Positions 44,755 to 62,580 of a stretch of 64,000 nt of DNA are shown here, one piece after another. The translations under genes were made by a program, and so were the position numbers. Origin of the DNA: Bacteroidaceae bacterium (lineage in GTDB: Bacteria; Bacteroidota; Bacteroidia; Bacteroidales; Bacteroidaceae); assembly GCA_017509605.1 (NCBI GenBank), contig JAFWPH010000006.1, forward strand, positions 1 to 64,000. Reading direction: 5' to 3'. Each line of letters starts with the position of its first letter. The stretch's first letter is position 1. The notes beneath the pieces were generated by a model that saw nothing but the letters and a program-made list of their open reading frames with translations, did no database searches and was not told where the DNA came from.

Positions 44755-44785
44755 TTGAAATAGCGTTAAAAAAAGATTAAGTTTG
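44755..44785 (+). promoter_or_regulatory. Promoter of the FAS1-SusCD locus
   Basis: TTG at 44755-44757, 20-base spacer, TAAGTTTG at 44778-44785. It predicts a leader of about 165 bases before the first FAS1 gene, unusually long for this window. Confidence 0.65.
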
Positions 44786-44874
44786 CAATTTGTAAGTGGA
44801 ATGACACTGGGAATAAGCCATTCGTGGTAAAGATAATCTTTACAACTGATGGTATCCAGTAGTAACATAGCTAA

Positions 44875-44929
44875 CTAACGTTAGAAATTGCAACTAACTA
44901 TATGTATGACTGAATTTGCAACTAACTAT
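44875..44929 (+). repeat. Direct repeats in the FAS1-SusCD leader
   Basis: TTGCAACTAACTAT occurs twice without mismatch (44888-44901 and 44916-44929), 28 bases apart. It is preceded by the perfect palindrome CTAACGTTAG (44875-44884), which shares the CTAAC core. All lie in the predicted 5' leader of the first FAS1 gene. Confidence 0.8.
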
Positions 44930-44957
44930 TATAATAACAATAATTATCTGAAAAGTT

Positions 44958-47849
44958 ATGAACAGACGCTTAAGTAAATGTATGCGCAATTGGCTGAAAG
45001 CCACTTGCGTGCTCACACTCTGCGCCGGTAACTATTCATGCACAGACGACTACAAGTTGGACGACAGCACTCCTTCGTGGTTGGACTCGAGCATCTATAA
45101 TTACCTATCAGAGAAGGGCAATTACACGAACTTCGTCAAGCTAATTGACGATTTGGACTACGCGGAAGTTTTGGCAAAGACAGGTAGTAAGACATTGTTT
45201 GTCGCAGATGACGACGCCTTTGCCAAGTTCTACCAGAACAACAGTTGGGGAGTAAGCGATTACTCACAACTGAGTTTTGCCCAGAAGAAACTTCTGCTGA
45301 AGTCCGCCATGTTGAACAACGCTTATCTGTTGGAAATGCTTCCCAACCTCTCCACTGCCAATGGCATAGAAGAGAACATGTGCCTCAGGCGTGAGACCTC
45401 GGTTGACGTGACCGACTCCATCACCCATCTGACCGCTTCAGAGCTTCCTGTCAGCTACAACCCTGACGACAAAGACTACTGGACCCGTTTCCGCGACCCG
45501 TCGAAAGGTGGCATTTATTTGGCAATGGACAACACCACGCCAATGATGACCCATTTCATTGCCGGTCAGATGAGTGAGAACAACATCACTGATGCAGACT
45601 TTGAGATTCTGCTTGGCACGAGCCGCGAGAAAAACGACGCTTACATCTACAACAGTAAGGTGCTTCAGCAAGACATCGTCTGCCAAAACGGCTATATCAA
45701 CGTTCTTGACCGCGTGCTCACCCCCTACCCCAACTTGGCAGAGGTGATCCGCACCAACGGCAAGAGCAACATTTTCAGTCACATGATTGAGCGTTTCAGC
45801 GCCCCGTTCTATAACGCCGACTTGACCAACCGTGTTCAGTTGTTGGGCAACAATGTCGATTCAGTATGGGTGAAGCGCTATTTCTCCAAGCGTTCTCAGG
45901 GCAACGAGGCCTTAAGGAACGACCGTAACACCAACCCAATAGGAGATCCGACAGGTAAAGACGTGGCTTTCTTCCTGAACTTCGACCCAGGATGGAATTT
46001 CTACCAGAGCGATGACCGCACGACCAAGGAAGAAGACATGGGTGTGATTTTCGCCCCGACTGACAGCCGTTTGTTCGACTATTTCTTCAGTGCTGACGGT
46101 GGTGGCCGCTTCCTTCTTGAGGCCTACGCTCCCGACATGATGAACAGCGTGACCAGCCCAACGGATTTTGAAGGTATATACAAGGTGATAGACCAGATTC
46201 CACTGAGTGTAATCCAGGCTCTGATCAACAACCTGATGAAGGTGTCGTTCAACTCCTCCGTTCCGAGCAAGTTCGAGACCATCAAGGACGATGCTCAAGA
46301 CCCGATGGTAGATGAGGAAGACCTTCAGTACATCGAGGATGTACTTCTGGCCAACAACGGTATTGTCTACCTGATGGACGAGGTGCTGACCCCCGCCCAG
46401 TACGCAGCAGTATCAGCCCCAGCCTATGTGGCTCGCGACATGCAGATTTTCAAGTACGCCTTCTCGAGGGAGACCCTTGACATCCAGACCAACTTCTACG
46501 CTTACTTGTTGGCCATGAGTTCAAGATTCAGTTTCTTCGTTCCATCCGATGAGAACTTCTGGTATATCGACCCCGTTTCTTTCGCCAACCAAACAGGTGA
46601 GCAACGCGCGTACCTTATTTCATGGGATGAGACAAACAACCGTCCCAAAGCCACAGCCTACGAGTATATCTATGACTACACCACAGGCCAGGGCTATATC
46701 GGCCAGCCCCTGTCGAACGTATCTTTCAGCGACAACCAGCTCTACAACCGTTTGCGCGACTTGCTGAACACGCACACCATTGTGCATGAGGACGATACAG
46801 AAACCACTGGCATCGACGAGACGAAGACAGGTATTGAGTGCGACAAGCACTATTTCCTCTCCAAGAGCGGTTCTCCCGTTTATATTGAGAACGCCACTCA
46901 GCGCGACAAGGGTTGCGTGGTGAAAGGCGGTTGGCAGTTGGCTGACGGCAGCGAGTGCAAGGTGATCCGCTTCGACGACAAGACTGCCGAAACCAACGGT
47001 AACGGTAACGGTATGGCTTACGAGATTGACGGTCCGATCCTTCCCACCATCGAGTCGGTGTTCAGCGTGCTGTACAATGACTCCACCAACTTCAACGAGT
47101 TCTACAAACTCTGCCAAACCGATGTTGAAGTGCTGAAGGAAATCGGCATCACCGCCGCCACCGACCAGCGCAAATACACTATTTTCGTCAGCGACAACGG
47201 ACTTCCCTGCTACGACAAGACCACAGGCAGCCGTGTTTCCACAGCCACCAACGTGAGGTTCTTCAACAATTACCGCTACACGGTTTATATCCCGACCAAC
47301 GAGGCAGTACTCGACGCCATCGACCGCGGTCTTCCCACATGGGAAAGCCTTCGCGAGCTGCTTGAGCTCGATGTGGATCCAGAAGAGCGGACAGAACTGA
47401 CAGAAGCAGAGGAGAAGGCCCGTAACGAGAAGTGCCTGGCCATGGTAACCACGCTGGTAAACTTCGTGAAGTACCACTTCCAGGACAACAGCATCTTCGC
47501 CGACAACCCCTCCCTCCAGGAAACCCAGTATGAGAGTTCGACTCTGAATGTGGAAACCGGCGTTTACTGCAAACTCGCAGTGTCCTCACAAGGCAACGGT
47601 TCCCTGTCGGTGAAAGACTTGGCAGGCCACACCCGCAACGTCACAAGCAAGAAGAACATCATCACCCGCGACTACACGTTCAACGCCGCCACCAACCCAC
47701 AGACGATCAGCGCCAGTTCGTTCGCTGTGGTTCATGGCATCGACGGTGTTCTCGACCATAAGTCATACACAAACGGACGGTACGATTCCGACTGGGCATC
47801 ACTTGCAGCCGCAAGGAGGTATCTCCACACATATCGTATCATCGAATAA
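44958..47849 (+). CDS. Fasciclin-domain lipoprotein with about four FAS1 repeats
   Basis: A 963-residue protein with a basic N-terminus and an atypical lipobox (NYSC, Cys 28, followed by Thr-Asp-Asp, compatible with surface export). At least three complete H1/H2 FAS1 pairs are visible: KTLFVADDDAF (near 77) with NVLDRVLTP (near 247), GVIFAPTDSR (near 360) with VYLMDEVLTP (near 468), and a last one with VYIPTNEAV (near 774) and VVHGIDGVLD (near 922). A further H1-like FSFFVPSDENF lies near 523. FAS1 domains mediate adhesion to proteins, glycans or partner subunits. First gene of the SusCD locus, 12 bases before SusC. Ligand unknown. Confidence 0.83.
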   Translation: MNRRLSKCMRNWLKATCVLTLCAGNYSCTDDYKLDDSTPSWLDSSIYNYLSEKGNYTNFVKLIDDLDYAEVLAKTGSKTLFVADDDAFAKFYQNNSWGVSDYSQLSFAQKKLLLKSAMLNNAYLLEMLPNLSTANGIEENMCLRRETSVDVTDSITHLTASELPVSYNPDDKDYWTRFRDPSKGGIYLAMDNTTPMMTHFIAGQMSENNITDADFEILLGTSREKNDAYIYNSKVLQQDIVCQNGYINVLDRVLTPYPNLAEVIRTNGKSNIFSHMIERFSAPFYNADLTNRVQLLGNNVDSVWVKRYFSKRSQGNEALRNDRNTNPIGDPTGKDVAFFLNFDPGWNFYQSDDRTTKEEDMGVIFAPTDSRLFDYFFSADGGGRFLLEAYAPDMMNSVTSPTDFEGIYKVIDQIPLSVIQALINNLMKVSFNSSVPSKFETIKDDAQDPMVDEEDLQYIEDVLLANNGIVYLMDEVLTPAQYAAVSAPAYVARDMQIFKYAFSRETLDIQTNFYAYLLAMSSRFSFFVPSDENFWYIDPVSFANQTGEQRAYLISWDETNNRPKATAYEYIYDYTTGQGYIGQPLSNVSFSDNQLYNRLRDLLNTHTIVHEDDTETTGIDETKTGIECDKHYFLSKSGSPVYIENATQRDKGCVVKGGWQLADGSECKVIRFDDKTAETNGNGNGMAYEIDGPILPTIESVFSVLYNDSTNFNEFYKLCQTDVEVLKEIGITAATDQRKYTIFVSDNGLPCYDKTTGSRVSTATNVRFFNNYRYTVYIPTNEAVLDAIDRGLPTWESLRELLELDVDPEERTELTEAEEKARNEKCLAMVTTLVNFVKYHFQDNSIFADNPSLQETQYESSTLNVETGVYCKLAVSSQGNGSLSVKDLAGHTRNVTSKKNIITRDYTFNAATNPQTISASSFAVVHGIDGVLDHKSYTNGRYDSDWASLAAARRYLHTYRIIE

Positions 47850-47861
47850 ATATATACAGTC

Positions 47862-50800
47862 ATGAACAAGATAAAGTTTATCCTTACGACAATAGCGCTG
47901 TTCTTTTTCATGAATTCAGCGATGGCTCAGCAGCGAATCTCAGGTAGGGTGTGGAGTGACCTCGACGGCCCTGTCATGTTGGCAAACGTAGTTGAGCGCG
48001 ATGCTAACAACCGTATCGTTGAAGCAGCCGTGACCGACATGAACGGTAACTTCTCGATGGTTGTGAAGAATCCCAAGGACCATCTGGTCATCTCTTATAT
48101 TGGTTACAAGACCGTGAACATCCCCATCGGCAACCGTACGAAGTTCGACATCAAGATGGAGGACAACACGATGATCCAGGAAGTGGTTGTTAAAGCCAAG
48201 CCCAAGGTTCAGAGCAACGGTTTGGTGATTCCTGTGAAAGAGGTATCCGTAGCCACCCAGCGCATGAGCATGGAAGAAGTTGAAGGTCTTTCCTTCGCGT
48301 CTGTGGATGAAGCCATGCAGGGTAAGATCGCCGGTTTGGACATCATCTCTAACTCAGGTAACCTGGGTTCAGGTACGAGCATGCGTCTTCGTGGTGTGAG
48401 CACCATCAACGGTAGCGCAGAGCCTCTGATTGTGGTCGATGGCAACATCTTCGACCTTCCGACCGACGTATCTCAGGTGAACTTCGAAGACCTTGACAAC
48501 GAGGAGCAGTTCGCCACCCTTCTGTCGGTGAACCCCGAGGACATCAAGGACATCAACGTGCTGAAGGACGCCGCCGCTACCGCCATTTGGGGTGCCCGCG
48601 GTGCAAACGGTGTGATTGAGATCACCACCCGCCGTGGTTCCGCCGGTAAGACGAAAATCAATTTCTCCTACCGCTTCACTGGCAAGTGGTCTCCTGAAGG
48701 TTTGAACATGCTTGACGGTGACGGCTATACCATGATGATGAAGGAGGCTTATTTCAACCCGCGTCAGAGTGGTGCGACCAGTAACATGGTGGAGTTGAAC
48801 TACGACCAGAGCCGTCCGATGTACTACTACAACTTCAACAAGAACACAGACTGGGTTGACGCAGTGAACCAGTTCGGTCAGACTCACAACTACTACGTGA
48901 CGCTGAGCGGTGGTGGTGAGAAAGCCAAGTTCCGCATCTCTGGTGGTTACGACCATGAGACCGGTACCATCATCAAGCAGTACCTTGACCGTTTCTCCAC
49001 CCGTATGGTGTTGGACTACGACGTGTCAGACCGTATCCGTTTCTCTACCAACTTCGCTTTGACCTATACAGACAACCATAGGAACTGGGACGGCAGCAGC
49101 ACATCGGGCATTCTCGGAAAGGCCTACAACGCCATGCCCAACATGTCGATTTACGAGTACGACGAGTTCGGCAACCTGACAGGCGACTTCTTCAAGATGC
49201 TTCCTACCGCAGCCGCTGAAGGTGTCACTGCTGACGGTTATTCGTCAAGATACCTGAGTGACATGAAGAACAACGGCAACCCTGTCGCCATGTGTCACCA
49301 AGCTTGGAACAACCAATCAACTTACCGTATCACCCCTCAGTTCAACCTTCGCTATAAATTGCTGGGCAAAGACAGCGAGAGCCACCAACTCGACCTGAAC
49401 GCTGAGGTTTATATGGATATATACAATCAGTCGGACAACAGTTACTTCCCCTCCTCTCTGACCACCAACAGCTGGACATCAGGTGTGAACACAACGAGCA
49501 ACTACGAGTACAAGAGCCTCGCTCTCACCAGCCGTGAGTCGTTGATTTTCATTCCTCACTTCAATTCAGAGAAATGGTCAATGAGCATGATGGGTCGTTT
49601 TGAGTTCACCTCGGGTAACGGTACAAACCAATCCAGTGACCAGAGCGGTTTGCCTACAGGCGTCAGTTCTTCACGTGCTCATGCTTACCTTCAAGGCAAT
49701 GGTTCAGGCACGAGCGAATGGCGCAACGCCGCTTTCTTAGGCACCATCCACGCTGCTTATGGTGAGGACGGTAAATACGCAGTGGACCTCACTCTCCGCG
49801 CTGACGGTAGCACCAAGTTCGGTTCGGGCAACAAGTGGGGAACCTTCCCAGGTATCTCAGGTCGTTGGAACGTGAGCGACGAGAAATTCTTCGCTCCTTT
49901 GGTTGAGACCGTGAACCTTCTGTCCGTTCGTTTCGGCTGGGGTCGTGTAGGCCGCGAGCCAGGCAGTGAATACTTGATGTACAACAAGTACGGTGATTAT
50001 GGCAGTTATGGTAACATCGACTACAACCGTTCGATGGTGGCCATCAACCCAACGAACTTGCGTCTGACAGACCTCAAGTGGGAGACCATTGACTCATGGA
50101 ACCTCGGTTTCAACCTCAACCTTCTTGACGACCTGCTCCAGTTCGACCTCAACATCTACAACAAGAAGTCGAAAGACCTGCTGATGTCGAACGTAGGCAT
50201 CCCCTCAAGCACAGGTTTCAGCAGCCTTGCCTGGAAGAACGTAGGAACATTGGAGAACAAGGGATGGGAGTTGTTCATGAACACGAGCAACCGTCTGTTC
50301 AAGAAAGGCAAGTTCTCGATGAAGGCCTCGTTCAACATCGCCCAGAACATCAACACCATCACAGCCATGGACAATTCAGTGCTGGAGTCGATGAACAAGG
50401 AATACTCCTACAACAACGAATACCTGCAGCGTATTCAGATTGGCAATGCAGTAGGTTCAATCTACGGTTTCCGCTTCAAGGGTGTTTATCGCTATGATTA
50501 CGAGCACAGCGGCTACACTGAGGAATCGTTCAACACCTACGGTGACAACACAGCATACGCAGCTGAGCAGAAAGGAGAGAACGCCACTGTTCCAGTAGCC
50601 CGCGACGCAGAAGGCAATATCCTTTATGACTCGAAGGGCAGACCCCTCCACATGTACTTCAACTACGGCGGTCTGAACTATGAGTTCAAGGGTGGCGACA
50701 TGATGTACGAGGACGTCAACGCAGACGGTCAGATCAATGAGCTTGACATCGTTTACCTCGGCAACTCCAACCCGAAGATCAATGGTGGTTTCGGCCTCAA

Positions 50801-51269
50801 CTTCAACTATGGTGACTGGTCGTTGAAATTCAGTTTCAACTACCGCATGGGTAACAAGATTGTGAACCGCGCCCGTCAGAACAACGAGTCGATGCGTTCG
50901 AACATCAACCAAAGCCAGGCAGTGGCATGGCGTTGGAGAAAGAACGGTGACATCACCGAGATTCCCCGCGCTCTGAACTCGGGTATCATCGCCTCTTACA
51001 ACATGCTGGCCAACAGCCGCTACGTAGAGAAAGGCGACTATCTGCGCCTGCAGTATGTGCAGTTGATGTACAACTTCCCGAAGAAGTTGATCAAGGACTT
51101 CGGTCTTGAGAGTGTCAGGTTGTCAGCCTCTGCCAACAACTTGTTCGTTCTGACCAAATACACGGGTGTGGATCCGGAAGTATCTTACGGTGCATGGGGT
51201 GTTTGCTACGACAATTCCAAGACCCCGAGACCCAAGTCTTTCACCATCAGTCTTAATGTGGGATTCTAA
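47862..51269 (+). CDS. SusC/RagA-family TonB-linked outer-membrane transporter (first pair)
   Basis: A 1135-residue SusC-type protein: signal peptide 1-22, carboxypeptidase-like N-domain about 24-105 (ISGRVWSDLDGPVMLANV, ISYIGYKTVNI), TonB-box region QEVVVKAKPKV, plug about 135-255 with MRLRGVSTINGSAEPLIVVDG and DINVLKDAAATAIWGARGANG, then a 22-strand barrel ending SFTISLNVGF. It imports large oligomers with its SusD lid, driven by TonB-ExbBD. It lies 14 bases ahead of the SusD gene. No substrate can be deduced because no degradative enzyme is encoded nearby. Confidence 0.94.
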   Translation: MNKIKFILTTIALFFFMNSAMAQQRISGRVWSDLDGPVMLANVVERDANNRIVEAAVTDMNGNFSMVVKNPKDHLVISYIGYKTVNIPIGNRTKFDIKMEDNTMIQEVVVKAKPKVQSNGLVIPVKEVSVATQRMSMEEVEGLSFASVDEAMQGKIAGLDIISNSGNLGSGTSMRLRGVSTINGSAEPLIVVDGNIFDLPTDVSQVNFEDLDNEEQFATLLSVNPEDIKDINVLKDAAATAIWGARGANGVIEITTRRGSAGKTKINFSYRFTGKWSPEGLNMLDGDGYTMMMKEAYFNPRQSGATSNMVELNYDQSRPMYYYNFNKNTDWVDAVNQFGQTHNYYVTLSGGGEKAKFRISGGYDHETGTIIKQYLDRFSTRMVLDYDVSDRIRFSTNFALTYTDNHRNWDGSSTSGILGKAYNAMPNMSIYEYDEFGNLTGDFFKMLPTAAAEGVTADGYSSRYLSDMKNNGNPVAMCHQAWNNQSTYRITPQFNLRYKLLGKDSESHQLDLNAEVYMDIYNQSDNSYFPSSLTTNSWTSGVNTTSNYEYKSLALTSRESLIFIPHFNSEKWSMSMMGRFEFTSGNGTNQSSDQSGLPTGVSSSRAHAYLQGNGSGTSEWRNAAFLGTIHAAYGEDGKYAVDLTLRADGSTKFGSGNKWGTFPGISGRWNVSDEKFFAPLVETVNLLSVRFGWGRVGREPGSEYLMYNKYGDYGSYGNIDYNRSMVAINPTNLRLTDLKWETIDSWNLGFNLNLLDDLLQFDLNIYNKKSKDLLMSNVGIPSSTGFSSLAWKNVGTLENKGWELFMNTSNRLFKKGKFSMKASFNIAQNINTITAMDNSVLESMNKEYSYNNEYLQRIQIGNAVGSIYGFRFKGVYRYDYEHSGYTEESFNTYGDNTAYAAEQKGENATVPVARDAEGNILYDSKGRPLHMYFNYGGLNYEFKGGDMMYEDVNADGQINELDIVYLGNSNPKINGGFGLNFNYGDWSLKFSFNYRMGNKIVNRARQNNESMRSNINQSQAVAWRWRKNGDITEIPRALNSGIIASYNMLANSRYVEKGDYLRLQYVQLMYNFPKKLIKDFGLESVRLSASANNLFVLTKYTGVDPEVSYGAWGVCYDNSKTPRPKSFTISLNVGF

Positions 51270-51283
51270 CAGAAAAAACGATT

Positions 51284-53116
51284 ATGAGAACAAATATATT
51301 CAAAACAATAGCCATCTTCGGCGTCGTTGCCTCGGGTCTGTTGTTCACTTCTTGTGAAGACTTCCTGACCATCACTCCCTCGTCTCAGATTGTAGAGGAG
51401 GATTTCTGGGAGGACAAGACAGACTTGGAGAATGTTGTAGCCGCTTGCTACGGCCGCATGATCCGCAGCGACATGACCGAGAAGTACATCGTCTGCGGTG
51501 AGCTTCGCTCCGACAACTTTGTCCAGAAGTCAGGCAACGGAAGCAACAACATCCGCAATATCATGAACGGAAACTTGATTCCGAACAACAATATGTTTTC
51601 ATGGAGTTGTTTCTACAACGCCATCAACTATTGCAACAAGGTTCTGGCTCACGGTCCTGAGATTGTGGCCAAGGACGAGAGTTTCTCACAGGGCGACTGG
51701 GAGCCTATCAAGGCGGAGATGCTGGCTTTGAGAGCACTCAACCATTTCTACCTTGTCCGCACCTACGGTGAGATTCCATACGTGACCACCGACTTCAACA
51801 ATGACAGCCAGTACATGCTCCAGCCTCAGGTGACTCAGGAGCAAGCGCTTGACAGCATTATCATGGATTTGGAGGAAGCCAAGAACTACGCGATGGAGAG
51901 TTACGGCAACACCATCTACAACAAGGGACGTTTCACCAAGAAATCCATCTACACGCTTTTGGCCGATGTCTATCTCTGGCGCGCGAGCAAGAACACCTGT
52001 CCTGACTCAGTGGCTGTATATGGCAACCAGGCCACAGAAGACTACCGTAAAGTGGTGGAATATTGCGACTGGGTGCTCAACGACATCATCAAGGACCGCA
52101 CCAAGGAGCTCAACGAGAGCGGTGCAGTGCTTGGCGGTCTGAACTTTGACTTGACGCTCGATGACCTGTTCATCCAGAATGAGCAGACCCCAGGTGCCTC
52201 GGTGATCCGTTCCAGCAACATCGGTGCTTACAATTACATCTTCGGCCGTGGCAACTCCTCCGAGAGCATCTTCGAGTTCCAGTTCGACAACAACAGTGGT
52301 AACACAAACAGTTCGCTTTCGGGCTATTACCTGTCATTCGGAACCACCAACACAGCAGGCAGCATCGTTCTGTCGGAAGCCATCTTCGGTTCTCCGCTTG
52401 AGGACTTGAACTCATCAGCTCCAACCTCAGTCTATACCAAGACTGACTATAGGAAATGGGAGAACATGCTCTACACCAGTGCCCAGCAGACCGAATATCC
52501 TTGCTGCAAATACATTCTCAATAATGTCTCTCAAGGCGCAGGTTCATCCAACACAGTGACAGACAACTCCTCTTGGAACAACAATAATAGCCAGTCGAAG
52601 AAATCGATGAACAACTCCAACTGGATTCTCTACCGTCTGAGCGACATCGTGCTCATGCGCGCTGAGGCTATCAGCCAGATTTCCACCTCTCAAGAAGAGT
52701 TGCTGGAGTCAGTGAAGAGCATCCGCGAGATCTTCAAGCGTTCCAACCCATACGCATATGCCACTTCCAACAACCATGCATCAACAGACTCACTCAACAC
52801 CGAGTTCTTCTCTGCCTCAGGCGAGATGCTCGAGGCCCTGGTCATGTCAGAGCGCCAGAGAGAGTTTGTCGGTGAAGGCAAGCGTTGGTTCGACCTTGTT
52901 CGCTACGCGCAGCGCCGTGGCAGCACAGCAGCAATGTTCGACCGGTACCTCGGCCGTAAATACGGCGACAACAAGGATGCCGTTAAGTCGAAACTATCAA
53001 CGATAACGTCCCTGTTCAGCCCCATCTTCAGAGACGAGATGTATGCTAACCCATTGCTCCATCAGAACAGTGTATGGATCACCTCTGAGAGCACTTCAAA
53101 AACTGATAACCTATGA
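51284..53116 (+). CDS. SusD/RagB-family surface lipoprotein (first pair)
   Basis: A 610-residue lipoprotein with Cys 24 after LLFTS, followed by Glu-Asp as in exported surface lipoproteins. SusD features: DFLTITPSSQIVEEDFWED at the N-terminus, the TPR-like helices with EMLALRALNHFYLVRTYGEI, KKSIYTLLADVYLWRA, and the C-terminal MSERQREFVGEGKRWFDLVR. It should form the lid over the preceding SusC. Its stop overlaps the next FAS1 gene by four bases, which ties that lipoprotein to the transporter. Confidence 0.94.
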   Translation: MRTNIFKTIAIFGVVASGLLFTSCEDFLTITPSSQIVEEDFWEDKTDLENVVAACYGRMIRSDMTEKYIVCGELRSDNFVQKSGNGSNNIRNIMNGNLIPNNNMFSWSCFYNAINYCNKVLAHGPEIVAKDESFSQGDWEPIKAEMLALRALNHFYLVRTYGEIPYVTTDFNNDSQYMLQPQVTQEQALDSIIMDLEEAKNYAMESYGNTIYNKGRFTKKSIYTLLADVYLWRASKNTCPDSVAVYGNQATEDYRKVVEYCDWVLNDIIKDRTKELNESGAVLGGLNFDLTLDDLFIQNEQTPGASVIRSSNIGAYNYIFGRGNSSESIFEFQFDNNSGNTNSSLSGYYLSFGTTNTAGSIVLSEAIFGSPLEDLNSSAPTSVYTKTDYRKWENMLYTSAQQTEYPCCKYILNNVSQGAGSSNTVTDNSSWNNNNSQSKKSMNNSNWILYRLSDIVLMRAEAISQISTSQEELLESVKSIREIFKRSNPYAYATSNNHASTDSLNTEFFSASGEMLEALVMSERQREFVGEGKRWFDLVRYAQRRGSTAAMFDRYLGRKYGDNKDAVKSKLSTITSLFSPIFRDEMYANPLLHQNSVWITSESTSKTDNL

Positions 53117-55140
53117 TACTCGATATAATTAAAAACAACACTTTCAAGGGTGCGCTCATTGCCGTATCCTTGGGGCTGGGTCTCGCCAGTTGTTCAGAGA
53201 AAATCGACGAGTCTGACCTCTACACGTTCACCGGTGAGATGATGGTGGACCACTTCGAGAACAATCCTGAGACCTTCAGCAGTTACCTCGAGGTTCTTGG
53301 CCAGGTTCATCCCAGCAAACGTTCGAAATCCACAATGAAGGAACTTTTGGACGCTCGCGGTCACTACACCTGTTTCGCTCCGACCAACAAGGCCATCGAC
53401 GAATACCTGGACTCGATGCTGACCATAGGAAAGGTGTCGAGCAAGGATTTATCCCAGTTGCCTGACTCTGTGGCAGAGGACATCGTGTTCAACTCCATCA
53501 TCGACAACAACATCGAAGAGGCATACGCCAGCACCGACTTCCAGCCAGGTGCCCTTCAGCGCACGAACATGAACGGTCGTTATGTGGATATCAGTTACAG
53601 CAACGACAGTGTAACAGGTGTCAGCCTCATCTACGTGAACACCAACTCCTTGATTATCGACAAGGACATCGAGGTGGAGAACGGCTACATCCACACCATC
53701 GACAAGGTGCTATCCCCATCTACCGCCACCATCGCCGACTTGGTGGAGAACACGCCCAACACCCAGATTTTCGGTATGCTTCTGAAAGCCACTGGTTGGG
53801 ATGAGAAACTCTTGGGTTATAAAGATGAGGAATACGAAGAAGGCGACTATGCTGGTACAGCTGCCAACGACGGTCGTTTCTCGGGCTATTATCCTGAGAC
53901 CCGCAACACAGGCTACACCATTTATGTGGAAACAGACTCTATCTTCAACATGTACGGCATCACCGACATTGAATCGTTGAAGAAATACTTGCAGGACAAT
54001 GGTTATTACAGCGACGCCAACTTCGACGACGACTACTCCAATGAAGACAACGCCGTGAACCAGTTCGTTTCCTACCACCTGCTCCCCGAGCAGTTGACAT
54101 GGAACCGCATGGTCATCTTCTCGAACGAGAAAGGCTTCTTCAACGGTACTCCTAACGACGGAACCCAATTCCAGACCAACGTGTGGGAATACTACGAAAC
54201 CATGGGCAAGCAGCGCCGCAGTCTGAAAGTGACAGGTATCCGCGGTGGTAAGCGCCTGAACCGTTGCTCTGTCTATAACCAGATCAGCTACCGCGAGATT
54301 GGCGCCGACCCAGAGGGTATCAAGATCAACCAGACCAACGGCAAATACAAGAACTCAGCGATGAACGGTTACTACTACACCATCGAAGACCTTCTGCTTT
54401 GGAGCGACGTAGTGGCCTACAAGGTGCTGAACGAGCGTATGCGCTACGACATCTGCTCTCTGCTGCCAAAGATGATCACCAACAACTGCCGATACAACAA
54501 GTCGAACAACTGGTTCTTCACCAAAGACTATTTCGACAACATCATCAACGTAACGGACGAGACCTCTCTGGTGTACCTGCCCAACCAGAACTATGAAGGC
54601 GGTGCCAGTGCCGGCGGTGGTTCATGGACAAACTACCAGACAGACGAATTCAACATCGGCGGTATTTATGACTTCACAATGAAGTTGCCTCCCGTGCCTT
54701 ACACAGGAACATACGAAATCCGCTATGGTGTGAATGCCAACGGCAACCGTGGAATGGCACAGATATACATTGGTACCAATCCCAACAACCTCCCTGCCGT
54801 GGGTATTCCTATCGACCTTCGTCTGACCGGAACCTCTTTCGGCTGGGTGAGCGACACAGAGCTTGACGCCGACGGTATTGAGGAAAACGACAAGGCCATG
54901 CGCAACAACGACTACATGAAGGGTCCCAACTACTTCTACCCAGGCGACGGTCAGGCCGGACGTGTGAGCAGCATCTGTCTGCGCCGCATCATCTATCGTG
55001 GCCAGCTGGAAGCCGGCAAGACCTACTACGTAAGGTTCAAGTCAGTACTTGAGTCGAAGAGCACCGAGTTCTTCTATGACTATCTTGAGTTTGTACCCCG
55101 CTCAGTCTATAACGGCGACGTGGCAGAAGACAAGTGGTAA
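53113..55140 (+). CDS. Fasciclin-domain lipoprotein with C-terminal beta domain (second FAS1 protein)
   Basis: A 675-residue lipoprotein (Cys 27 after GLAS). Two FAS1 regions are visible: the first with H1 CFAPTNKAIDEYL (near 85) and H2 YIHTIDKVLSPS (near 191), the second, diverged, with TIYVETDSIFNMYG (near 268) and GYYYTIEDLLLW (near 417). From about 514 a separate jelly-roll-like domain follows (YDFTMKLPPVPYTGTYEIRY, ending YVRFKSVLESKSTEFFYDYL), which could bind a carbohydrate or protein. It overlaps the SusD gene by four bases and precedes the third FAS1 gene by 35. Binding partner unknown. Confidence 0.82.
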   Translation: MILDIIKNNTFKGALIAVSLGLGLASCSEKIDESDLYTFTGEMMVDHFENNPETFSSYLEVLGQVHPSKRSKSTMKELLDARGHYTCFAPTNKAIDEYLDSMLTIGKVSSKDLSQLPDSVAEDIVFNSIIDNNIEEAYASTDFQPGALQRTNMNGRYVDISYSNDSVTGVSLIYVNTNSLIIDKDIEVENGYIHTIDKVLSPSTATIADLVENTPNTQIFGMLLKATGWDEKLLGYKDEEYEEGDYAGTAANDGRFSGYYPETRNTGYTIYVETDSIFNMYGITDIESLKKYLQDNGYYSDANFDDDYSNEDNAVNQFVSYHLLPEQLTWNRMVIFSNEKGFFNGTPNDGTQFQTNVWEYYETMGKQRRSLKVTGIRGGKRLNRCSVYNQISYREIGADPEGIKINQTNGKYKNSAMNGYYYTIEDLLLWSDVVAYKVLNERMRYDICSLLPKMITNNCRYNKSNNWFFTKDYFDNIINVTDETSLVYLPNQNYEGGASAGGGSWTNYQTDEFNIGGIYDFTMKLPPVPYTGTYEIRYGVNANGNRGMAQIYIGTNPNNLPAVGIPIDLRLTGTSFGWVSDTELDADGIEENDKAMRNNDYMKGPNYFYPGDGQAGRVSSICLRRIIYRGQLEAGKTYYVRFKSVLESKSTEFFYDYLEFVPRSVYNGDVAEDKW

Positions 55141-55175
55141 TTAAAGACAATCAACCGATATAATTATAGGAAAAT

Positions 55176-56957
55176 ATGAACAGAAACTATCATAAATGGT
55201 TAGGTGGAACCTTGATGGCGATGGCATCATTCGCGTTCCTCGCCTCATGTTCCGACGACCATTTCGACATAGACCCTGGAGTATCAAGCCGTCAAACCCT
55301 GTGGGAGAGCATCAAGTCGAGATCCGAACTCTCTCAGTATGCCGACATTCTGAGCAGAACCAAATACTCCAAGAATGAGAAAACAAAAACGTCTCAGACC
55401 TACGCCGATTTGCTGAACCACGACCAGACCTTTACCATCTGGGCTCCGAAGGACGGCACATTCGACTACGACTACTACAGCAACCTGCTGAACACAGGCA
55501 AGGCTGAAGACTCATACAAGGTTGAGAAAGAGCTGCTCCGCAACAGCATGACTCGTTTCAGCCATGTGATGACCGGCAACGACAAATTGGAACTTGACTT
55601 GTTCAACAGCAAAACAGCGGTCTTCGATTGTGGGCAAGGTATCATCAAGAACCAGAAGATTGTGACCCCCAACATCGGTGCCTCCAATGGTGTGCTGCAT
55701 ATCACAGAGGGTGCGGTGGAATACCAGCCCAATGTGTATGAGTTTATCGCCTCCCGCAGCGACCTCGATTCTCTGAACACATACATCAAAGCCTACGAGA
55801 AGTTCGAATTCAATGAGTCTCAAAGTACTCAGGGACCGACAGTGAACGGCCAAATCACATGGGTAGATTCAGTGACCTTCTTGTCGAACGATTATCTTTA
55901 CGGAACACTTCATGCATTCTTGAATCGTGAGGACAGTCTCTACGCCATGATCATGCCCACCAACAAGGCTTGGTCGGAGGCTCTGGAGAGAACACAAAAA
56001 TTCTACAAGTATAAGAGCCAATACGTGCAGACTATCGTACGCGTGGATGCCGACGGCAACGAAAGCACCTCATCAGTGACCACCGCCTTGTCGGATTTGG
56101 AACGCGACTCGATGACCAACCTCTATTCCAAGAATGCCATTATCGGTGACTTTGTGTTCAACGCCCGCTACCAGCACGGCTATTCTTATAAGGACTTCAA
56201 CAAGGCAGGCGCCTGCGACTCGCTGATTAACACCATCAACAGGGTGTTCTACGACCCCGTGAACGCCTCCCTGTTCGACGGGCAGGAGCCCATCGAGGTC
56301 AGCAACGGCTATGTTTACGTGGTGGACAACTTCAACCTCAAAGTCGAGGACGGTTGGGGTGAGCCGATGGAGAACCAAGCCGAGGAATTCAGATACATAG
56401 ACAGTTACACGGGTTGTACTCCAACCTCGCTGAATCTCAAACAGCGTTTCCGCGTTGAGGATGAAAATGATCCAGAGATCATGGTTGACAGTATTGTTGA
56501 GGTTAAACTGCTCCGCACCGTCCAGACTTCCTCCGCCGCCAACCCGTCGATCACTTTCAAGCTGCCGGAGACCATGTCGTGCAAGTACGACATCTATGTT
56601 CTGATGGCCTACAACACAGAAGCCAACCTTCCCAACAAGTTCAGGGCACAGATCTCTTACCACACAGCCGATGAGAGCAGGTCGTCGATGGAAAACACGA
56701 ACTTGACTGTTCCCGAGGGCATGGCAGGTGAAGGACGCGACTTTGAGAACCGTCCTCCACGTATAGAGAACGGACAGTTGGTGTATGTTGACAGCATCTT
56801 AGTGGCTAAGGACTTCGAGTTCCCCGTCTGCTACAAAGGCCTGAGCGACGCTTACGCCACGCTCCGTCTGAACAGTTATGTGACATCACGTCAGACCAGC
56901 CAGTACAGCCGTGAGATGTGGATAGACCAGATTGTTCTGAAAGCAAAGGAAGAATAA
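55176..56957 (+). CDS. Fasciclin-domain lipoprotein with C-terminal beta domain (third FAS1 protein)
   Basis: A 593-residue lipoprotein (Cys 25 after FLAS, then Ser-Asp-Asp, a likely surface-export signal). Two diverged FAS1 regions: FTIWAPKDGTFDY (near 86) with NGVLHITEGAVEY (near 171), and YAMIMPTNKAWSEAL (near 256) with NGYVYVVDNFNL (near 378). A C-terminal beta domain from about 450 (SITFKLPETMSCKYDIYVLM, ending EMWIDQIVLKAKEE) parallels that of the preceding FAS1 protein. Gene order FAS1-FAS1-SusC suggests it serves the second transporter. Function is unproven. Confidence 0.8.
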   Translation: MNRNYHKWLGGTLMAMASFAFLASCSDDHFDIDPGVSSRQTLWESIKSRSELSQYADILSRTKYSKNEKTKTSQTYADLLNHDQTFTIWAPKDGTFDYDYYSNLLNTGKAEDSYKVEKELLRNSMTRFSHVMTGNDKLELDLFNSKTAVFDCGQGIIKNQKIVTPNIGASNGVLHITEGAVEYQPNVYEFIASRSDLDSLNTYIKAYEKFEFNESQSTQGPTVNGQITWVDSVTFLSNDYLYGTLHAFLNREDSLYAMIMPTNKAWSEALERTQKFYKYKSQYVQTIVRVDADGNESTSSVTTALSDLERDSMTNLYSKNAIIGDFVFNARYQHGYSYKDFNKAGACDSLINTINRVFYDPVNASLFDGQEPIEVSNGYVYVVDNFNLKVEDGWGEPMENQAEEFRYIDSYTGCTPTSLNLKQRFRVEDENDPEIMVDSIVEVKLLRTVQTSSAANPSITFKLPETMSCKYDIYVLMAYNTEANLPNKFRAQISYHTADESRSSMENTNLTVPEGMAGEGRDFENRPPRIENGQLVYVDSILVAKDFEFPVCYKGLSDAYATLRLNSYVTSRQTSQYSREMWIDQIVLKAKEE

Positions 56958-56989
56958 CGTTCTTGATAACACTTTAACAGCGATATACA

Positions 56990-59900
56990 ATGAAAAAGAA
57001 TATATTTATGAATATCCAGCAGTGCATTCTCAGGTTCGGTATAGGTCTGATGATGTTGTCAGGAGCGACCGTCATGATGGCTCAGGACTATGACGACGAT
57101 GAATCCTCTGCTACCACTGAGAACGAGGACAGCATAGCGCTTGCCAAGCGCCGCGCTGCCAAGAAGAAGGTAGAGCCTACCTACGAGATGAAGTCTGTGA
57201 GCGGTTATGTGGTTGACGCAGCCACCAAACAGCCCATAGACGGTGCCAGGGTGCAGGCCTACAACAACAACCGCTACTCCGTCATGACCGACGAGACAGG
57301 ACACTACACCATTCAAGTTCCCGTGTTCGTGACCTCACTTTATGTGACAGTTCCAGAATATAATGATGTTCAAGTGCCCACCCTCGAAGGTACAGCTCCT
57401 ACAGCCAATCTTTACAGCAGCCGCCTGAACGGCTACTACAAGAAGACCACTGGCATTACCTCAGAGCGCACAGCCACTGTTGACCTCTCGAGCGCTGTTT
57501 CCGTTGACAACGAGATAGAGAACCAACTTGCGGCCGACATCCACACCATCAACCGCAGCGGTATCAAAGGACAAGGTGTAGCCATGTTTATCCGAGGTTT
57601 GAACTCCTTGAACATCAATGCCCAGCCATTGGTGATTCTGGATGGTATCTTCATGGACTTGCAAACCGACCGCTCCTCCATCCACGACGGTTTCTTCAAC
57701 AACATCCTATCCGGCATCGACCCCGAGGACATCGAGAGCGTTCAGGTGCTGAAGAACGCCACCGCCCTTTATGGTACTCGTGGTGGCAACGGTGTAGTGA
57801 TTATCAACACGAAGCGTGGCAAGAGCATGGCCACCCGCATCAATGTGTCGGTTTATGGTGGTTTCGAGACAACCCCCAGCACAACCAAGATGATGAACGG
57901 CAACCAGTATAAGAACTATGTGAGCGAACTGATCGGTACGACAGAGGAAGGTATGGAACACAGTACAGCAGCGTACTCCATCCCATTCCTCAACGACAAT
58001 CCCGATTACTACTGGTACCCCATGTACCATAATAACACAGACTGGTCAGAGGATCTCTACCACACTGCATTCACCCACAATTACAAAGTGAATGTTCAAG
58101 GAGGTGATGACATCGCCATGTACAACCTGTCGTTAGGTTACTCCAATGCCCAATCGACAGCCAAGGAGAATGGTTTCGACCGCCTGAACATCCGTTTCAA
58201 CACCGACATCAAACTGGTGAAGAACCTCAGCACCAAACTTGACGTTGCCTATAGCCGCATGACCTATAACCTGCGCGATAACGGATGGGCAGAGAATTAC
58301 AATTCAAGCACCATCACCTCTCCCAATGTCCTGGGTTTGATTCAGGCGCCATTCCTCAGCAAGTACGGCTACTATACTGGCGAAGACGGCAAACTCCACC
58401 AGTCGAGCGTTTACGCAGGCAAGACCATCGACGACAACTATCCCTTTGGCTTCGCTTCCGCTTACGGCACCAACACGGCTCTTGCCAATCCATACTGGAT
58501 TCTCGAAAATGGTGACGGTGACAACAAGAACACCCAGGAGGTAACCCAGTTCAACTTGAACGTGATGCCCAAGTGGGAAATCAACAGATACTTGACGCTG
58601 ACCAACCGCTTCGCTTATCAGTTGAACCGCCACAACGAGAAGAGTTATATTCCAAAGGCCGGTACTCCAGTCTATGCATTGGAAGGTCTTGGTGATGTGA
58701 CCAGCCGTTCTCGCAGCCTTTTCGGTAAGGAGACTTCTCTTTATGAGGACCTTCGCCTCGAATGGAAGAGACGCTTCGGCGCTCACGACTTCGATGTGTT
58801 CGGTGGTTTCCGCTTCACCTCGAACTCCTTCAGCGACAGTTACACGACAGAGTACAACTCAGGTAACGACAAGATGCCCGACTCGGGTAACGAGTTCCGT
58901 GAGCTGGATGGTAGCGATGATGAGTGGCGAAATATCGCCTACTATGTTCAAGGCGCTTACAACTACATGGAGAAATACTATGTAGAAGCCACATTGACTG
59001 CCGAGACTTCTTCCCGCTTCGGTCTGGAAACCGACGGCGGCATGAAACTCGCAGGTGTGAACTGGGGTATTTTCCCATCTGTACAATTAGGTTGGGTCAT
59101 CACCAACGAGCCATGGATGAAGACCAACAACTTGGTGAACTACCTGAAGTTGACAGCAGGTTACGACATCAGCGGTAATGACAATATCGGTTACTCACTG
59201 AGCCGCACCTACTTCCAGGCCACTCCGTTCATGCACAACGCCATCGCCCTGAAATTGACGAACATTGAGAACCCGAAAATCCAATGGGAAAGCACCCAAA
59301 GGTTCAACATCGGACTTCAAGGGTCGTTCTTCAAGGACAGAGTTCAGGCTGGTGCAGAAGTGTATTTCAGCACAACCAGCAACCTGTTGACTCTGAAATC
59401 GCTTAACTACATGGCAGGTCTTGGTGAGTACTGGACCAACGACGGCAAACTCCGTAACTCAGGTGTAGAGGCTCACGCCAACATCGTCCTCCTGAACACC
59501 AAGAACTTCACTTGGCAGATTGGTGCTTCTATGGGTCACTACAAGAACAAGATTGTTGACCTTCCCGAGAACAGTTACACCACCAAGATTTATGGTGGCG
59601 AGATATTGACGAGCAAGGACAACCCCGCAGGTTTGTTCTACGGTTTCAAGACCGCAGGTGTGTTCGCTACAGACCAAGAGGCCTCAACTGCTTACAACGG
59701 CAATGATTACCTGAAGTATCCGACCGGCATCGAGTTGAAGCCCTACAACAACTTCAGCGCTGGTGATGTTCATTTTGTGGACCTCGACGGCAACGGTGTC
59801 ATCAACGACAATGACAAGACCGTCATCGGTGACCCCAATCCCGACATCTTCGGTTCAGTCTATACTAACTTCACCTACAAGAAGTGGAGTCTTGACTTCA

Positions 59901-60337
59901 ACTTCAAGTACTCAGTGGGCAATGACGTTTACAACTACCAGCGCTCACAACTTGAGGGAGTGAACAACTTCTACAACCAGACGACAGCCGCCGTGAACCG
60001 CTGGACCTGCGAAGGACAGCGCACCGACATCCCCCGGGCCTGCACCACCACCAGTGAGGCATGGGTGAACAACGAGCGTTTCTCCGACCGTTGGATAGAA
60101 GACGGTGGATACTTCAAACTTAAGAAGGTTCGCCTGTCGTACCAGACTCCACTCAACCTGAGCTGGATGCAGGGTATCACCGTCTGGGCCGAGGCCAACA
60201 ACCTGTTCACCCTGACGAAGTACACAGGCTCCGATCCCGAGTTCTCCTGCGGCAACAGCGTGCTCTACCAGGGCATCGACGCCGGCTTGCTCCCCTCGAA
60301 CCGCAATTTCAACATCGGTGTGAGAATCAACTTGTAA
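56990..60337 (+). CDS. SusC/RagA-family TonB-linked outer-membrane transporter (second pair)
   Basis: An 1115-residue SusC-type protein. After the signal peptide (about 1-32, ending VMMAQ) comes an acidic then basic stretch (DYDDDESSATTENED, AKRRAAKKK) not usual in SusC. Then follow the carboxypeptidase-like domain (about 68-150, VSGYVVDAATKQPIDGARVQ), the plug (about 180-290, MFIRGLNSLNINAQPLVILDG, VQVLKNATALYGTRGGNGVV) and the barrel ending NFNIGVRINL. It is clearly diverged from the first SusC of the locus, so the two are not a recent duplication. It is followed by its SusD after 34 bases. Confidence 0.93.
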   Translation: MKKNIFMNIQQCILRFGIGLMMLSGATVMMAQDYDDDESSATTENEDSIALAKRRAAKKKVEPTYEMKSVSGYVVDAATKQPIDGARVQAYNNNRYSVMTDETGHYTIQVPVFVTSLYVTVPEYNDVQVPTLEGTAPTANLYSSRLNGYYKKTTGITSERTATVDLSSAVSVDNEIENQLAADIHTINRSGIKGQGVAMFIRGLNSLNINAQPLVILDGIFMDLQTDRSSIHDGFFNNILSGIDPEDIESVQVLKNATALYGTRGGNGVVIINTKRGKSMATRINVSVYGGFETTPSTTKMMNGNQYKNYVSELIGTTEEGMEHSTAAYSIPFLNDNPDYYWYPMYHNNTDWSEDLYHTAFTHNYKVNVQGGDDIAMYNLSLGYSNAQSTAKENGFDRLNIRFNTDIKLVKNLSTKLDVAYSRMTYNLRDNGWAENYNSSTITSPNVLGLIQAPFLSKYGYYTGEDGKLHQSSVYAGKTIDDNYPFGFASAYGTNTALANPYWILENGDGDNKNTQEVTQFNLNVMPKWEINRYLTLTNRFAYQLNRHNEKSYIPKAGTPVYALEGLGDVTSRSRSLFGKETSLYEDLRLEWKRRFGAHDFDVFGGFRFTSNSFSDSYTTEYNSGNDKMPDSGNEFRELDGSDDEWRNIAYYVQGAYNYMEKYYVEATLTAETSSRFGLETDGGMKLAGVNWGIFPSVQLGWVITNEPWMKTNNLVNYLKLTAGYDISGNDNIGYSLSRTYFQATPFMHNAIALKLTNIENPKIQWESTQRFNIGLQGSFFKDRVQAGAEVYFSTTSNLLTLKSLNYMAGLGEYWTNDGKLRNSGVEAHANIVLLNTKNFTWQIGASMGHYKNKIVDLPENSYTTKIYGGEILTSKDNPAGLFYGFKTAGVFATDQEASTAYNGNDYLKYPTGIELKPYNNFSAGDVHFVDLDGNGVINDNDKTVIGDPNPDIFGSVYTNFTYKKWSLDFNFKYSVGNDVYNYQRSQLEGVNNFYNQTTAAVNRWTCEGQRTDIPRACTTTSEAWVNNERFSDRWIEDGGYFKLKKVRLSYQTPLNLSWMQGITVWAEANNLFTLTKYTGSDPEFSCGNSVLYQGIDAGLLPSNRNFNIGVRINL

Positions 60338-60371
60338 TCATTCATCCATACAATCAAGAAAGACGTATAAT

Positions 60372-62405
60372 ATGAAAAAGATATCAATTATAGGTTTACT
60401 GTCCATGTCGCTTGTAGCCGGTCTGACGACCACTTCCTGCGAGGACATGATGACCATCGACACCGACCTGAACAACTACACTTCAGCCAACGACACACTG
60501 TACTCCTACTGGGGTATCCTGAAATGCGTTCAGGACGTGGCTGAGCGTCAGGTGATTCTCGGTGAGCTTCGCGGTGACCTTGTGAGCACCACCGAAAACG
60601 TGACCGACACGCTCTTCGCCATCGCCAACTTCAACAACCCCAAGGACGGTTCGTGCAGCATGCTGAAGGTAAGCGACTACTACAACGTCATCAACAACTG
60701 CAACCTGTACATCGCCAATGCCGACACTTCTTTAGTGAAGAGCAACAAGAAGTACATGATTCCTGAGTATGCCCAGGTTCAGTCCATCCGTGCCTGGACA
60801 TATCTTCAGTTGGTGAAGAACTACGGCGAGGTGCCTTTCATTACAGAGCCCATCAACTCTCTTGATGTCATCGACAACTTTGACTACCATAACAACCTGG
60901 TCAATAAGGACAATCTGCTGGATAAGTTCCTCGACCTGGGTTTAGACAAGTTTGTTGATACTGAATACCCGCACTATCAAAGCTACAACAGCGGTAGCAG
61001 TGTGGAAGCAGCTCTGTGTTATATTCCAGTCCGCCTGGTACTCGGTGACATGTACCTACTCCGCGGTGCCAGCAAAGAGGACTACAGGGCAGCAGCGCAG
61101 TACTACTACGACTACCTGAAGAACAATACGGGTAACGTGACTCGTCAGTATGTACAATGGAAAACCTCACGCGTAACCGCTTCGGGTTATACATCAGAAG
61201 GCCAAGGCCAATGGGGTAGTTGGGGAAGTGTTTATTCCACCGCCAACCGTGCTACAACCAATGATGTCATCACCTCTATTCCATCAGCCTCCAACCAGCA
61301 GTATGGCACGATGCTGATGCGTGTTGCCGACATTTATGGTTTCACTCCATCTTCGAGCCAGACCACCAACGTCAGCGAGAATGATGAGGGCAATGAAGAG
61401 GTGACTTCCTCTGGTGCTATCAGCGTGGCTTTGAACTTAAAGCCTCAGACCACGCCTTCACCAGCCTACACCACACTGAACCGAGTGCAGAACTATGTCT
61501 TCTACGACCTGAGCACCTCTACTCCCCGTCGTACCGACTATCCTGTAGGCGATGCCCGCTATGAGTATTCAGTGTTTGAAACGACTTATGAAGGTGATCC
61601 ATACGTTTATTGCGCCAAAGCCTCACGTTTAGGACAGTTCTACTACACCATCCCTATCTACCGCAAGAGTCTGATCTGGCTGCGTCTGGCCGAGGCCATC
61701 AACCGCGCCGGATTCCCCCAGTACGCCTTCGGTATCTTGAAGGACGGTCTGTGCGAGGACAACATGCCCCAGATGGACACTCGTCGTGAAATCAAACTGC
61801 GCATGACTGAGGAAGGCGACACCGTCTTCACTGAGGATGGCTCGACAATCAACGACACGATCTACGTTCGTTATGTAAGAACCAACTCCCGTGGTGCCCT
61901 CTACTATGTAGATAGCCTTGAGGTACAGAATTTCTTCCTGCCTTTCACAGAGACCGTTTGGCAGAACAACTTTGGTATCCATGCCCGTGGTTGTGGTTAT
62001 GGCACTTGGAACAGTGTCGATTACATCACCACGAACCTCACTGGTTTCAACGACTCCACCAACTACACCTACGACCGCATGCTTGCAGAACAGGGAGTGG
62101 ATGTAACCACCGCTTCCGAGGCTGAAATCATCAATGCAGTGGAGAACGTCATCGTTGACGAGTTAGCCCTTGAGACCGCGTTCGAAGGCAACCGTTTCAC
62201 TGACCTGGTGAGAATCGCTGAACACAAGAACGCATCTGGTTTCAAAGGCACAGACTGGCTGGCAGGCAAGGTAGCCGACCGTGAGCTGTACTACAATCCG
62301 CTCACCCTGGAATCCAGTGGCGAACGCAACAGCGAACTCTACAACAAGTTGCTCGACCCGTCGAACTGGTACTTCACACTACCAGCATGGAGGACCAACA
62401 AGTAA
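60372..62405 (+). CDS. SusD/RagB-family surface lipoprotein (second pair)
   Basis: A 677-residue lipoprotein with Cys 23 after TTTS, followed by Glu-Asp. SusD features: VQSIRAWTYLQLVKNYGEVP, PVRLVLGDMYLLRGA, RKSLIWLRLAEAINRAGF and ETAFEGNRFTDLVRIAEHKN. It is slightly longer than the first SusD, and it carries a Ser/Thr/Asn-rich insert between about 280 and 370. Last gene of the locus; a strong terminator follows 29 bases after the stop. Confidence 0.93.
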   Translation: MKKISIIGLLSMSLVAGLTTTSCEDMMTIDTDLNNYTSANDTLYSYWGILKCVQDVAERQVILGELRGDLVSTTENVTDTLFAIANFNNPKDGSCSMLKVSDYYNVINNCNLYIANADTSLVKSNKKYMIPEYAQVQSIRAWTYLQLVKNYGEVPFITEPINSLDVIDNFDYHNNLVNKDNLLDKFLDLGLDKFVDTEYPHYQSYNSGSSVEAALCYIPVRLVLGDMYLLRGASKEDYRAAAQYYYDYLKNNTGNVTRQYVQWKTSRVTASGYTSEGQGQWGSWGSVYSTANRATTNDVITSIPSASNQQYGTMLMRVADIYGFTPSSSQTTNVSENDEGNEEVTSSGAISVALNLKPQTTPSPAYTTLNRVQNYVFYDLSTSTPRRTDYPVGDARYEYSVFETTYEGDPYVYCAKASRLGQFYYTIPIYRKSLIWLRLAEAINRAGFPQYAFGILKDGLCEDNMPQMDTRREIKLRMTEEGDTVFTEDGSTINDTIYVRYVRTNSRGALYYVDSLEVQNFFLPFTETVWQNNFGIHARGCGYGTWNSVDYITTNLTGFNDSTNYTYDRMLAEQGVDVTTASEAEIINAVENVIVDELALETAFEGNRFTDLVRIAEHKNASGFKGTDWLAGKVADRELYYNPLTLESSGERNSELYNKLLDPSNWYFTLPAWRTNK

Positions 62406-62433
62406 GGGATCAAAAGTAAGAAATCCTCTTTAT

Positions 62434-62474
62434 AAAAAATCCCGTCAGCCTATTTGTGGTTGACGGGATTTTTT
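62434..62474 (+). terminator. Terminator of the FAS1-SusCD locus
   Basis: A 14-bp stem (AAAAAATCCCGTCA at 62434-62447 with TGACGGGATTTTTT at 62461-62474) around a 13-base loop, ending in six T. Closes the 17.5-kb gene set. Confidence 0.9.
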
Positions 62475-62580
62475 GTGCATTTATCTAAGAAATAGGACTT
62501 GGAGCAGTAAAAATGCTACGAAAAATGACTTGAAAACACTTAATAAAGCATGTTTTTGTAAAAAATATCGATAAAAATGT

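Follow-up and report, generated by a model that had tools for sequence, protein, structure and literature searches.

Two described systems of the Bacteroidota come closest to the locus considered here, namely the xylan utilization system xusABCDE-xyn10C (xus) of Prevotella bryantii and Bacteroides (PMC7848910, PMC8002723) and the Sus-type outer-membrane 'utilisomes' for levan and dextran of Bacteroides thetaiotaomicron (PMC7618045). The locus lies in the window, by which we mean the whole 64,000-nucleotide stretch that was analysed (positions 1 to 64,000 of contig JAFWPH010000006.1, forward strand, in assembly GCA_017509605.1 of a Bacteroidaceae bacterium). It is a cassette of seven genes, A-C1-D1-B-E-C2-D2, in which A, B and E encode FAS1 lipoproteins, C1 and C2 TonB-dependent transporters of the SusC type, and D1 and D2 the SusD lipoproteins that accompany them. 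Our analysis makes it probable that the cassette captures glycan fragments at the cell surface and imports them in a TonB-dependent manner, the FAS1 lipoproteins acting as surface glycan-binding proteins (SGBPs). FAS1 proteins are best known as adhesion molecules of animals and plants, and the open-access literature that we searched contains essentially no description of what they do in Bacteroidota. No paper on FAS1 genes together with SusC and SusD genes was found in the open-licence PubMed Central (PMC) literature, which is weak evidence of novelty; a paper on a mussel symbiont reports one highly transcribed FAS1 gene, the SusC and SusD genes of that symbiont lying elsewhere. A fixed cassette, kept as a unit over amino-acid identities of about 30% and present three times in one genome, would give FAS1 proteins a testable job in glycan capture.

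Like xus, the cassette combines two SusC/SusD (SusCD) pairs with putative surface binding proteins in one unit, and xylan enzymes flank those cassettes that resemble C36, a second copy from the same genome described below. It differs from xus in having three FAS1 lipoproteins, one encoded before and two between the SusCD pairs, and whereas the xusA-B-C-D pairs are adjacent, the pairs of the cassette are split by at least one FAS1 gene in the fetched blocks. Downstream of the xus pairs stand xusE and a glycoside hydrolase family 10 (GH10) gene, whereas the window copy is followed by a terminator and then by an OmpA-family gene (62641), and the GH10 genes of the genome are located elsewhere. Because it has neither adjacent pairs nor a downstream GH10 gene and xusE, we did not class the cassette as xus. 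Two further differences are that the cassette has an enzyme-free clade and that both pairs were always retained in the loci fetched. The substrate of one cassette clade is probably that of xus; the cassette would then point to an alternative to the xus xylan system, and it makes the co-occurrence of two SusCD pairs directly testable. With the utilisomes the cassette shares SusC barrels, SusD lids and, by prediction, accessory lipoproteins of the surface, and the nearest solved chain for both C1 and C2 is 8aa4. In contrast to the utilisomes, it has two unlike SusCD pairs and no surface glycoside hydrolase, its accessory proteins are of the FAS1 type and not immunoglobulin-like SGBPs, and its complex is a putative one, suggested only by gene order and joint divergence.

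All seven open reading frames (ORFs) are co-oriented within positions 44958-62405, and each scores above its curated Pfam or NCBIfam cut-off (22 bits for Fasciclin, PF02469; 368 for TIGR04056; 23.1 for SusD_RagB, PF07980; Table 1). The intergenic gaps are, in gene order, 12, 14, −4, 35, 32 and 34 bp; where the original prediction had counted two direct overlaps or near-overlaps, the sole true overlap is that of 4 bp at which D1 and B share ATGA. C1 has a carboxypeptidase-regulatory-like domain and a plug domain, and its identity to C2 is about 25-27%. Read by eye, the N termini of A, B, E, D1 and D2 each contain a signal peptide and a lipobox whose cysteine precedes acidic residues, and those of C1 and C2 are ordinary signal sequences; the predicted products are lipoproteins of the outer membrane in five cases (three FAS1, two SusD) and SusC barrels in the other two. 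A, B and E share with SGBPs the property of being outer-membrane lipoproteins, on the evidence of these lipoboxes, encoded beside SusD. Profile searches with Pfam and NCBIfam detected no carbohydrate-active enzyme (CAZyme), peptidase or regulator inside the window block, as had been foreseen for glycoside hydrolases, peptidases and regulators, and no hybrid two-component system (HTCS) or sigma/anti-sigma regulator linked to its genes within the block. Of the features by which a polysaccharide utilization locus (PUL) is recognised, the window copy possesses SusC and an adjoining SusD, and it lacks a glycan-degrading enzyme and a linked regulator.

Table 1. Features of the FAS1-SusCD cassette, with positions in the window.
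Feature	Positions	Strand	Basis
Bacteroidales-type promoter	44755-44785	+	-33 TTG, 20-nt spacer, -7 TAAGTTTG; pattern match
A, FAS1 lipoprotein	44958-47849	+	963 aa, lipobox NYS-C28; Pfam Fasciclin 7e-14, 52.5 bits
C1, SusC/RagA TonB-dependent outer-membrane transporter	47862-51269	+	1135 aa; TIGR04056 683 bits
D1, SusD lipoprotein	51284-53116	+	610 aa; PF07980 89.7 bits, PF14322; SusD relatives in PDB
B, FAS1 lipoprotein	53113-55140	+	675 aa; Fasciclin 6.9e-13, 49.3 bits
E, FAS1 lipoprotein	55176-56957	+	593 aa; Fasciclin 29.1 bits
C2, second SusC/RagA transporter, dissimilar	56990-60337	+	1115 aa; TIGR04056 588 bits
D2, second SusD lipoprotein, divergent	60372-62405	+	677 aa; PF07980 30.7 bits; paralogue alignment
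Intrinsic terminator	62431-62477	+	20 counted pairs, 7 GC, loop 7, T-rich tail

The eight FAS1 domain matches in the genome of this gut-type bacterium are confined to three places, the window (C3) and two further loci, C62 and C36, at which the gene order A-C1-D1-B-E-C2-D2 is identical to that of the window. In all three copies, each cassette gene matches its positional counterpart best and not its neighbour of the same kind; we therefore conclude that the seven genes were copied as a unit and have diverged jointly. Identity between the copies is 48-63% for C1, 33-39% for D1, 27-35% for E and 34-43% for A, and C36 and C62 are closer to each other than to the window copy for all seven genes. 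The three cassettes contain 6 of the 15 SusD genes detected in the genome and are the only tandem SusCD pairs found in it.

To follow the cassette in relatives, A alone was used as query against 101 genomes and was present in 36, nearly all strong matches falling within the same family. Among the 32 loci fetched in this way, C1, D1, E and C2 were ordered on one strand in every case, D2 was found in 31 (the remaining locus ends at a contig edge) and B in 24. With B as query, in an order-level search and in a B-alignment search of a named collection, more blocks were obtained, the loci fetched by B including 33 complete ones; these further blocks belong to metagenome-assembled genomes of rumen and gut Bacteroidaceae and Prevotellaceae, to Alloprevotella rava, oral taxon 473 and Paludibacter, and to termite-gut lineages. 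In each of the 71 blocks all genes share one strand, and the median gaps at standard junctions are 11-36 bp. Pairwise distances calculated for six genes across 66 loci show correlations of r 0.73-0.94, whereas permutation for A versus D2 gave 0.14 at most. The synteny at paralogous and orthologous loci rules out a chance neighbourhood. Judged from these sequences, the cassette is widespread in Bacteroidales, ancient and inherited as a unit. The gene order named in the original prediction therefore recurs within the genome itself, at C62 and C36, and in dozens of others, and the joint FAS1-SusCD system that it had postulated is strongly supported by the conserved order, the single transcription unit and the joint divergence.

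Scattering of the FAS1 genes away from SusCD in relatives had been named as the observation that would speak against such a system. A and E stay with the SusCD genes, whereas B is in part scattered, being found alone in 34 loci; it is also doubled or tripled in a few. A six-gene form without B (L090, L091, L094, L096, L097, L098, L106 and L107) occurs in more than one clade, and B has therefore probably been lost repeatedly. The stand-alone copies of B outside the block (L126-L138, L140-L143, L146, L148-L150, L152 and others) often lie beside a large secreted protein of about 1130-1300 aa, or they adjoin GH2, GH3, GH95 or GH127 enzymes; the large protein at L128 has a dockerin-like domain at its end.

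Scanning for generic sigma-70 promoters gave no useful information, with 19 sites against 17.5 expected, and we therefore adopted the -33/-7 pattern of Bacteroidales. A match to TTG-N20-TAAGTTTG begins exactly at 44755, which is where the original prediction had placed the start of the locus, and this promoter core is kept in the congener L078. In relatives, the -7 element TAnnTTTG occurs at most 150 nt before A in 32 of 60 (5.1 expected), whereas before each of the six internal genes of their loci it occurs at background level only. At the other end, the intrinsic terminator is the best-scoring site of the regional scan. Together, these features support the reading of the seven genes as one putative transcription unit and uphold the view that they lie co-oriented between one promoter and one strong terminator; a division into two separate operons was ruled out, the internal junctions being without promoter-like enrichment. 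The leader of about 170 nt between the promoter and the start of A contains the direct repeat TTGCAACTAACTAT, present twice at a distance of 28 bp (44887-44930). The repeat was not found in the leaders of relatives and was therefore rejected as a conserved leader motif.

The predicted anatomy of the FAS1 proteins suggests how they could act at the cell surface. In the AlphaFold model of A (m446ba9527573; mean predicted local distance difference test score, pLDDT, 85.2), residues 33-937 align to TGFBIp and periostin across all four of their FAS1 domains (Z 17-18, 507-522 residues); the VIA-align comparison with 7asg gave Z 18.1 for 509 aligned residues and a global root-mean-square deviation of 12.5 Å, the large global deviation of these alignments being due to different angles between the domains. 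A is thus predicted to form a rod in which four FAS1 domains are arranged as in TGFBIp and periostin. Its segments 1, 2 and 4 are recognisable against the FAS1 profile of B (probabilities 98, 92 and 97) and segment 3 is recognisable as FAS1 by structure only. The model of B (m42b7e2c3fc49; pLDDT 86.8) has a FAS1 domain at residues 40-204, a second, divergent FAS1-like domain reaching to about 431, and at 440-664 a beta-sandwich resembling a carbohydrate-binding module (CBM), with a xanthan lyase module (6f2p, Z 9.8), 7ehg (Z 9.2) and CBM4, CBM6 and CBM35 modules (Z 7-8) as its best matches; values of Z below 8 are common, by the comparison tool's own warning. This C-terminal sandwich is suggestive of glycan binding. 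In E, the N-terminal FAS1 domain is homologous to that of B (hhalign probability 98.6) and the C-terminal region has no assigned fold; profile comparison detected no relationship between the C-terminal regions of B and E (hhalign probability 2.1). When A, B and E were compared with PDB sequences, FAS1 domains alone were matched. The cassette proteins have the FAS1 fold in common with TGFBIp, periostin and bacterial FAS1 lipoproteins, with a tandem array of four in A; they differ from the family at large in being putative bacterial surface lipoproteins encoded with SusCD, and B differs further by its CBM-like domain.

The genes that flank the cassette in relatives bear on its substrate. In a tree of 76 C1 sequences, the C36 copy groups with L086, L191, L108, L107, L080, L081 and L195. 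The flanks of L196/L086 carry GH115, GH43 with an esterase, GH95, an HTCS and GH30 with an esterase; those of L212/L108 carry GH115, GH10, GH43, GH67 and a major facilitator superfamily (MFS) transporter; those of L195 carry GH67 and an MFS transporter; and those of L191 carry a GH43 xylosidase, GH30 and a SASA esterase. GH10 and GH67 lie just upstream in L080, SASA is found at L081 and GH43 at L107, and an HTCS or its sensor domain flanks the relatives L196, L167 and L180. By its family assignments, the enzyme set flanking C36-type loci is one for glucurono(arabino)xylan use, and glucurono(arabino)xylan is the most likely substrate of the C36-containing clade. Within the family, GH10 was present in 20 of the 28 genomes carrying A versus 9 of the 33 without A (Fisher p 0.0008), and the association of GH67 with A was less clear (p 0.06), both values being uncorrected for ancestry. 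The protein or glycoprotein ligand favoured in the original prediction found no support, given that a related clade, including one paralogue from this genome, lies among xylan enzymes and that B has a CBM-like domain; a protein ligand is less likely, and a glycan ligand is the better supported of the two.

The window copy belongs to another large C1 clade than the C36 copy. The flanks of this window-type clade mostly hold LpxD, LpxC and other housekeeping families, with only scattered glycoside hydrolases (GH2 twice, others once), and GH43, GH67 and GH115 are absent among the 25 commonest Pfam families listed for its 85 flanking proteins (13 of these families were seen at least twice). The corresponding tally for the clades holding C62 and C36 was 9 of 85 proteins for GH43, 3 of 85 for GH67 and 2 of 85 for GH115. 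In L139, L144, L147, L153, L154, L157, L162, L165 and L178, the cassette is followed immediately by lpxD-lpxC in the same orientation; this is the neighbourhood found in Alloprevotella and its relatives, and within the genus of the window genome the block stands beside serC. The lone B genes of L138 and L150 come after purM-prfA-pyrF, which precede lpxD in L202.

Several of these observations weigh against the reading of the cassette as a glycan importer. The housekeeping neighbours of the window-type clade prevent its substrate from being read from context, and eight A-positive genomes of the family, including Alloprevotella rava, have no GH10, so that not every copy can have xylan as its substrate. 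The pectin control GH28 leans in the same direction as GH10 (22/28 versus 19/33, p 0.10, uncorrected for ancestry). The xylan clade was delimited on the tree by visual inspection, with flank data for only some of its members, no such enzymes were seen at its members L077, L079 and L082, and the C36 copy has no enzyme directly adjoining it. Finally, the CBM-like match of B is a match of fold only (Z 7-10).

In the mechanism that we favour, one promoter would drive all seven genes and the FAS1 lipoproteins would fill the role that SGBPs such as SusE/SusF and XusE have in ordinary PULs. They would surround the two SusCD 'pedal bins' at the cell surface, with A forming a rod and B holding a long glycan chain by its CBM-like end, and oligosaccharides would be handed to both transporters. 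The two transporters would differ in specificity and may have been retained together either because each imports a different product or because the FAS1 scaffold is common to both. Depolymerising enzymes would come from elsewhere in the genome or, in some relatives, from flanking genes. This mechanism has its precedents in the Sus and utilisome models (PMC7618045), in xusABCDE and in further PULs with tandem SusCD pairs (PMC8002723). It is possible, if doubtful, that the arrangement goes further and that the two unlike SusCD transporters are joined by the FAS1 rods to one machine for glycan import, the seven proteins making up an obligate supercomplex; such a paired-transporter utilisome, if true, would represent an architecture not yet reported, with several copies per genome throughout Bacteroidales.

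Tandem SusCD pairs have been described elsewhere, for example in the arabinan and pectin PULs of B. thetaiotaomicron (PMC8002723), and the cassette might accordingly be no more than an ordinary enzyme-poor PUL, that is, a xus-like double SusCD locus with SGBPs that simply have the FAS1 fold. We consider this rather unlikely, because the xus pairs are adjacent and one of them can be absent (PMC7848910), whereas here a FAS1 gene precedes the first pair, at least one lies between the pairs, both pairs are present in every locus fetched with A, and a whole clade carries the cassette without any enzyme. The FAS1 proteins could also be structural spacers or membrane anchors that set the spacing of the transporters and have no ligand of their own, comparable to a proposal made for DUF1735 proteins (PMC11216935). 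Such a role would suit A, a long FAS1 rod in which no binding domain was detected, and the fast divergence of the FAS1 sequences (about 30% identity) under a retained order, but it is unlikely for B, whose added CBM-like domain, two- or threefold presence in some loci and solitary occurrence elsewhere fit a ligand binder better, and we judge it unlikely for the set as a whole. Improbable, too, is the proposal that the FAS1 proteins are TGFBIp/periostin-like adhesins for host or plant glycoproteins and that the SusCD pairs import peptides as RagAB does, since, although A matches the TGFBIp/periostin four-FAS1 array end to end, RagA is among the solved relatives of both C1 and C2, and oral Alloprevotella without detected GH10 belong to the window-type clade, RagA is not the closest of those relatives, the flanks of neither clade contain a clear recurrent peptidase partner, the recurrent flank partners, where present, are glycan enzymes and esterases, and B bears a CBM-like domain.

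The lack of enzymes in the window copy has to be seen against the other SusCD loci of the genome. Its CAZymes include about four GH10, one GH67 and about 28 GH43 enzymes, mostly encoded far from SusCD genes. The SusCD loci C63 (with SusE/SusF), C4 (with SGBP-B and an HTCS) and C14 have no CAZyme among the neighbours examined, and only one SusD gene, in C65, was found near a GH43 gene. Enzyme-free SusCD loci are usual in this genome and the lack of an enzyme is therefore no special sign at the window locus; the idea that this lack is itself anomalous was rejected. The absence of a degradative enzyme emphasised in the original prediction thus holds locally but not as a peculiarity, since three other SusCD loci likewise have no CAZyme among their examined neighbours and a related clade of the cassette lies among xylan enzymes. 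No canonical xus locus was found elsewhere in the genome, which is 88% complete, and of the GH10 genes only that on C17 has a nearby SusC-like ORF, which is truncated at the contig end. No glycan-degrading enzyme was seen beside the C62 or C36 copies of the cassette. Upstream of the C62 copy are encoded a secreted protein of 991 aa whose HpiC1-like match is weak (L009:237-3209) and a PETase/chlorophyllase-like esterase (L012:17160-18056). The C65 locus (L227:6422-18240) is a fructan-type PUL that comprises SusC, SusD, two lipoproteins, GH32, an MFS transporter and a PfkB-like kinase.
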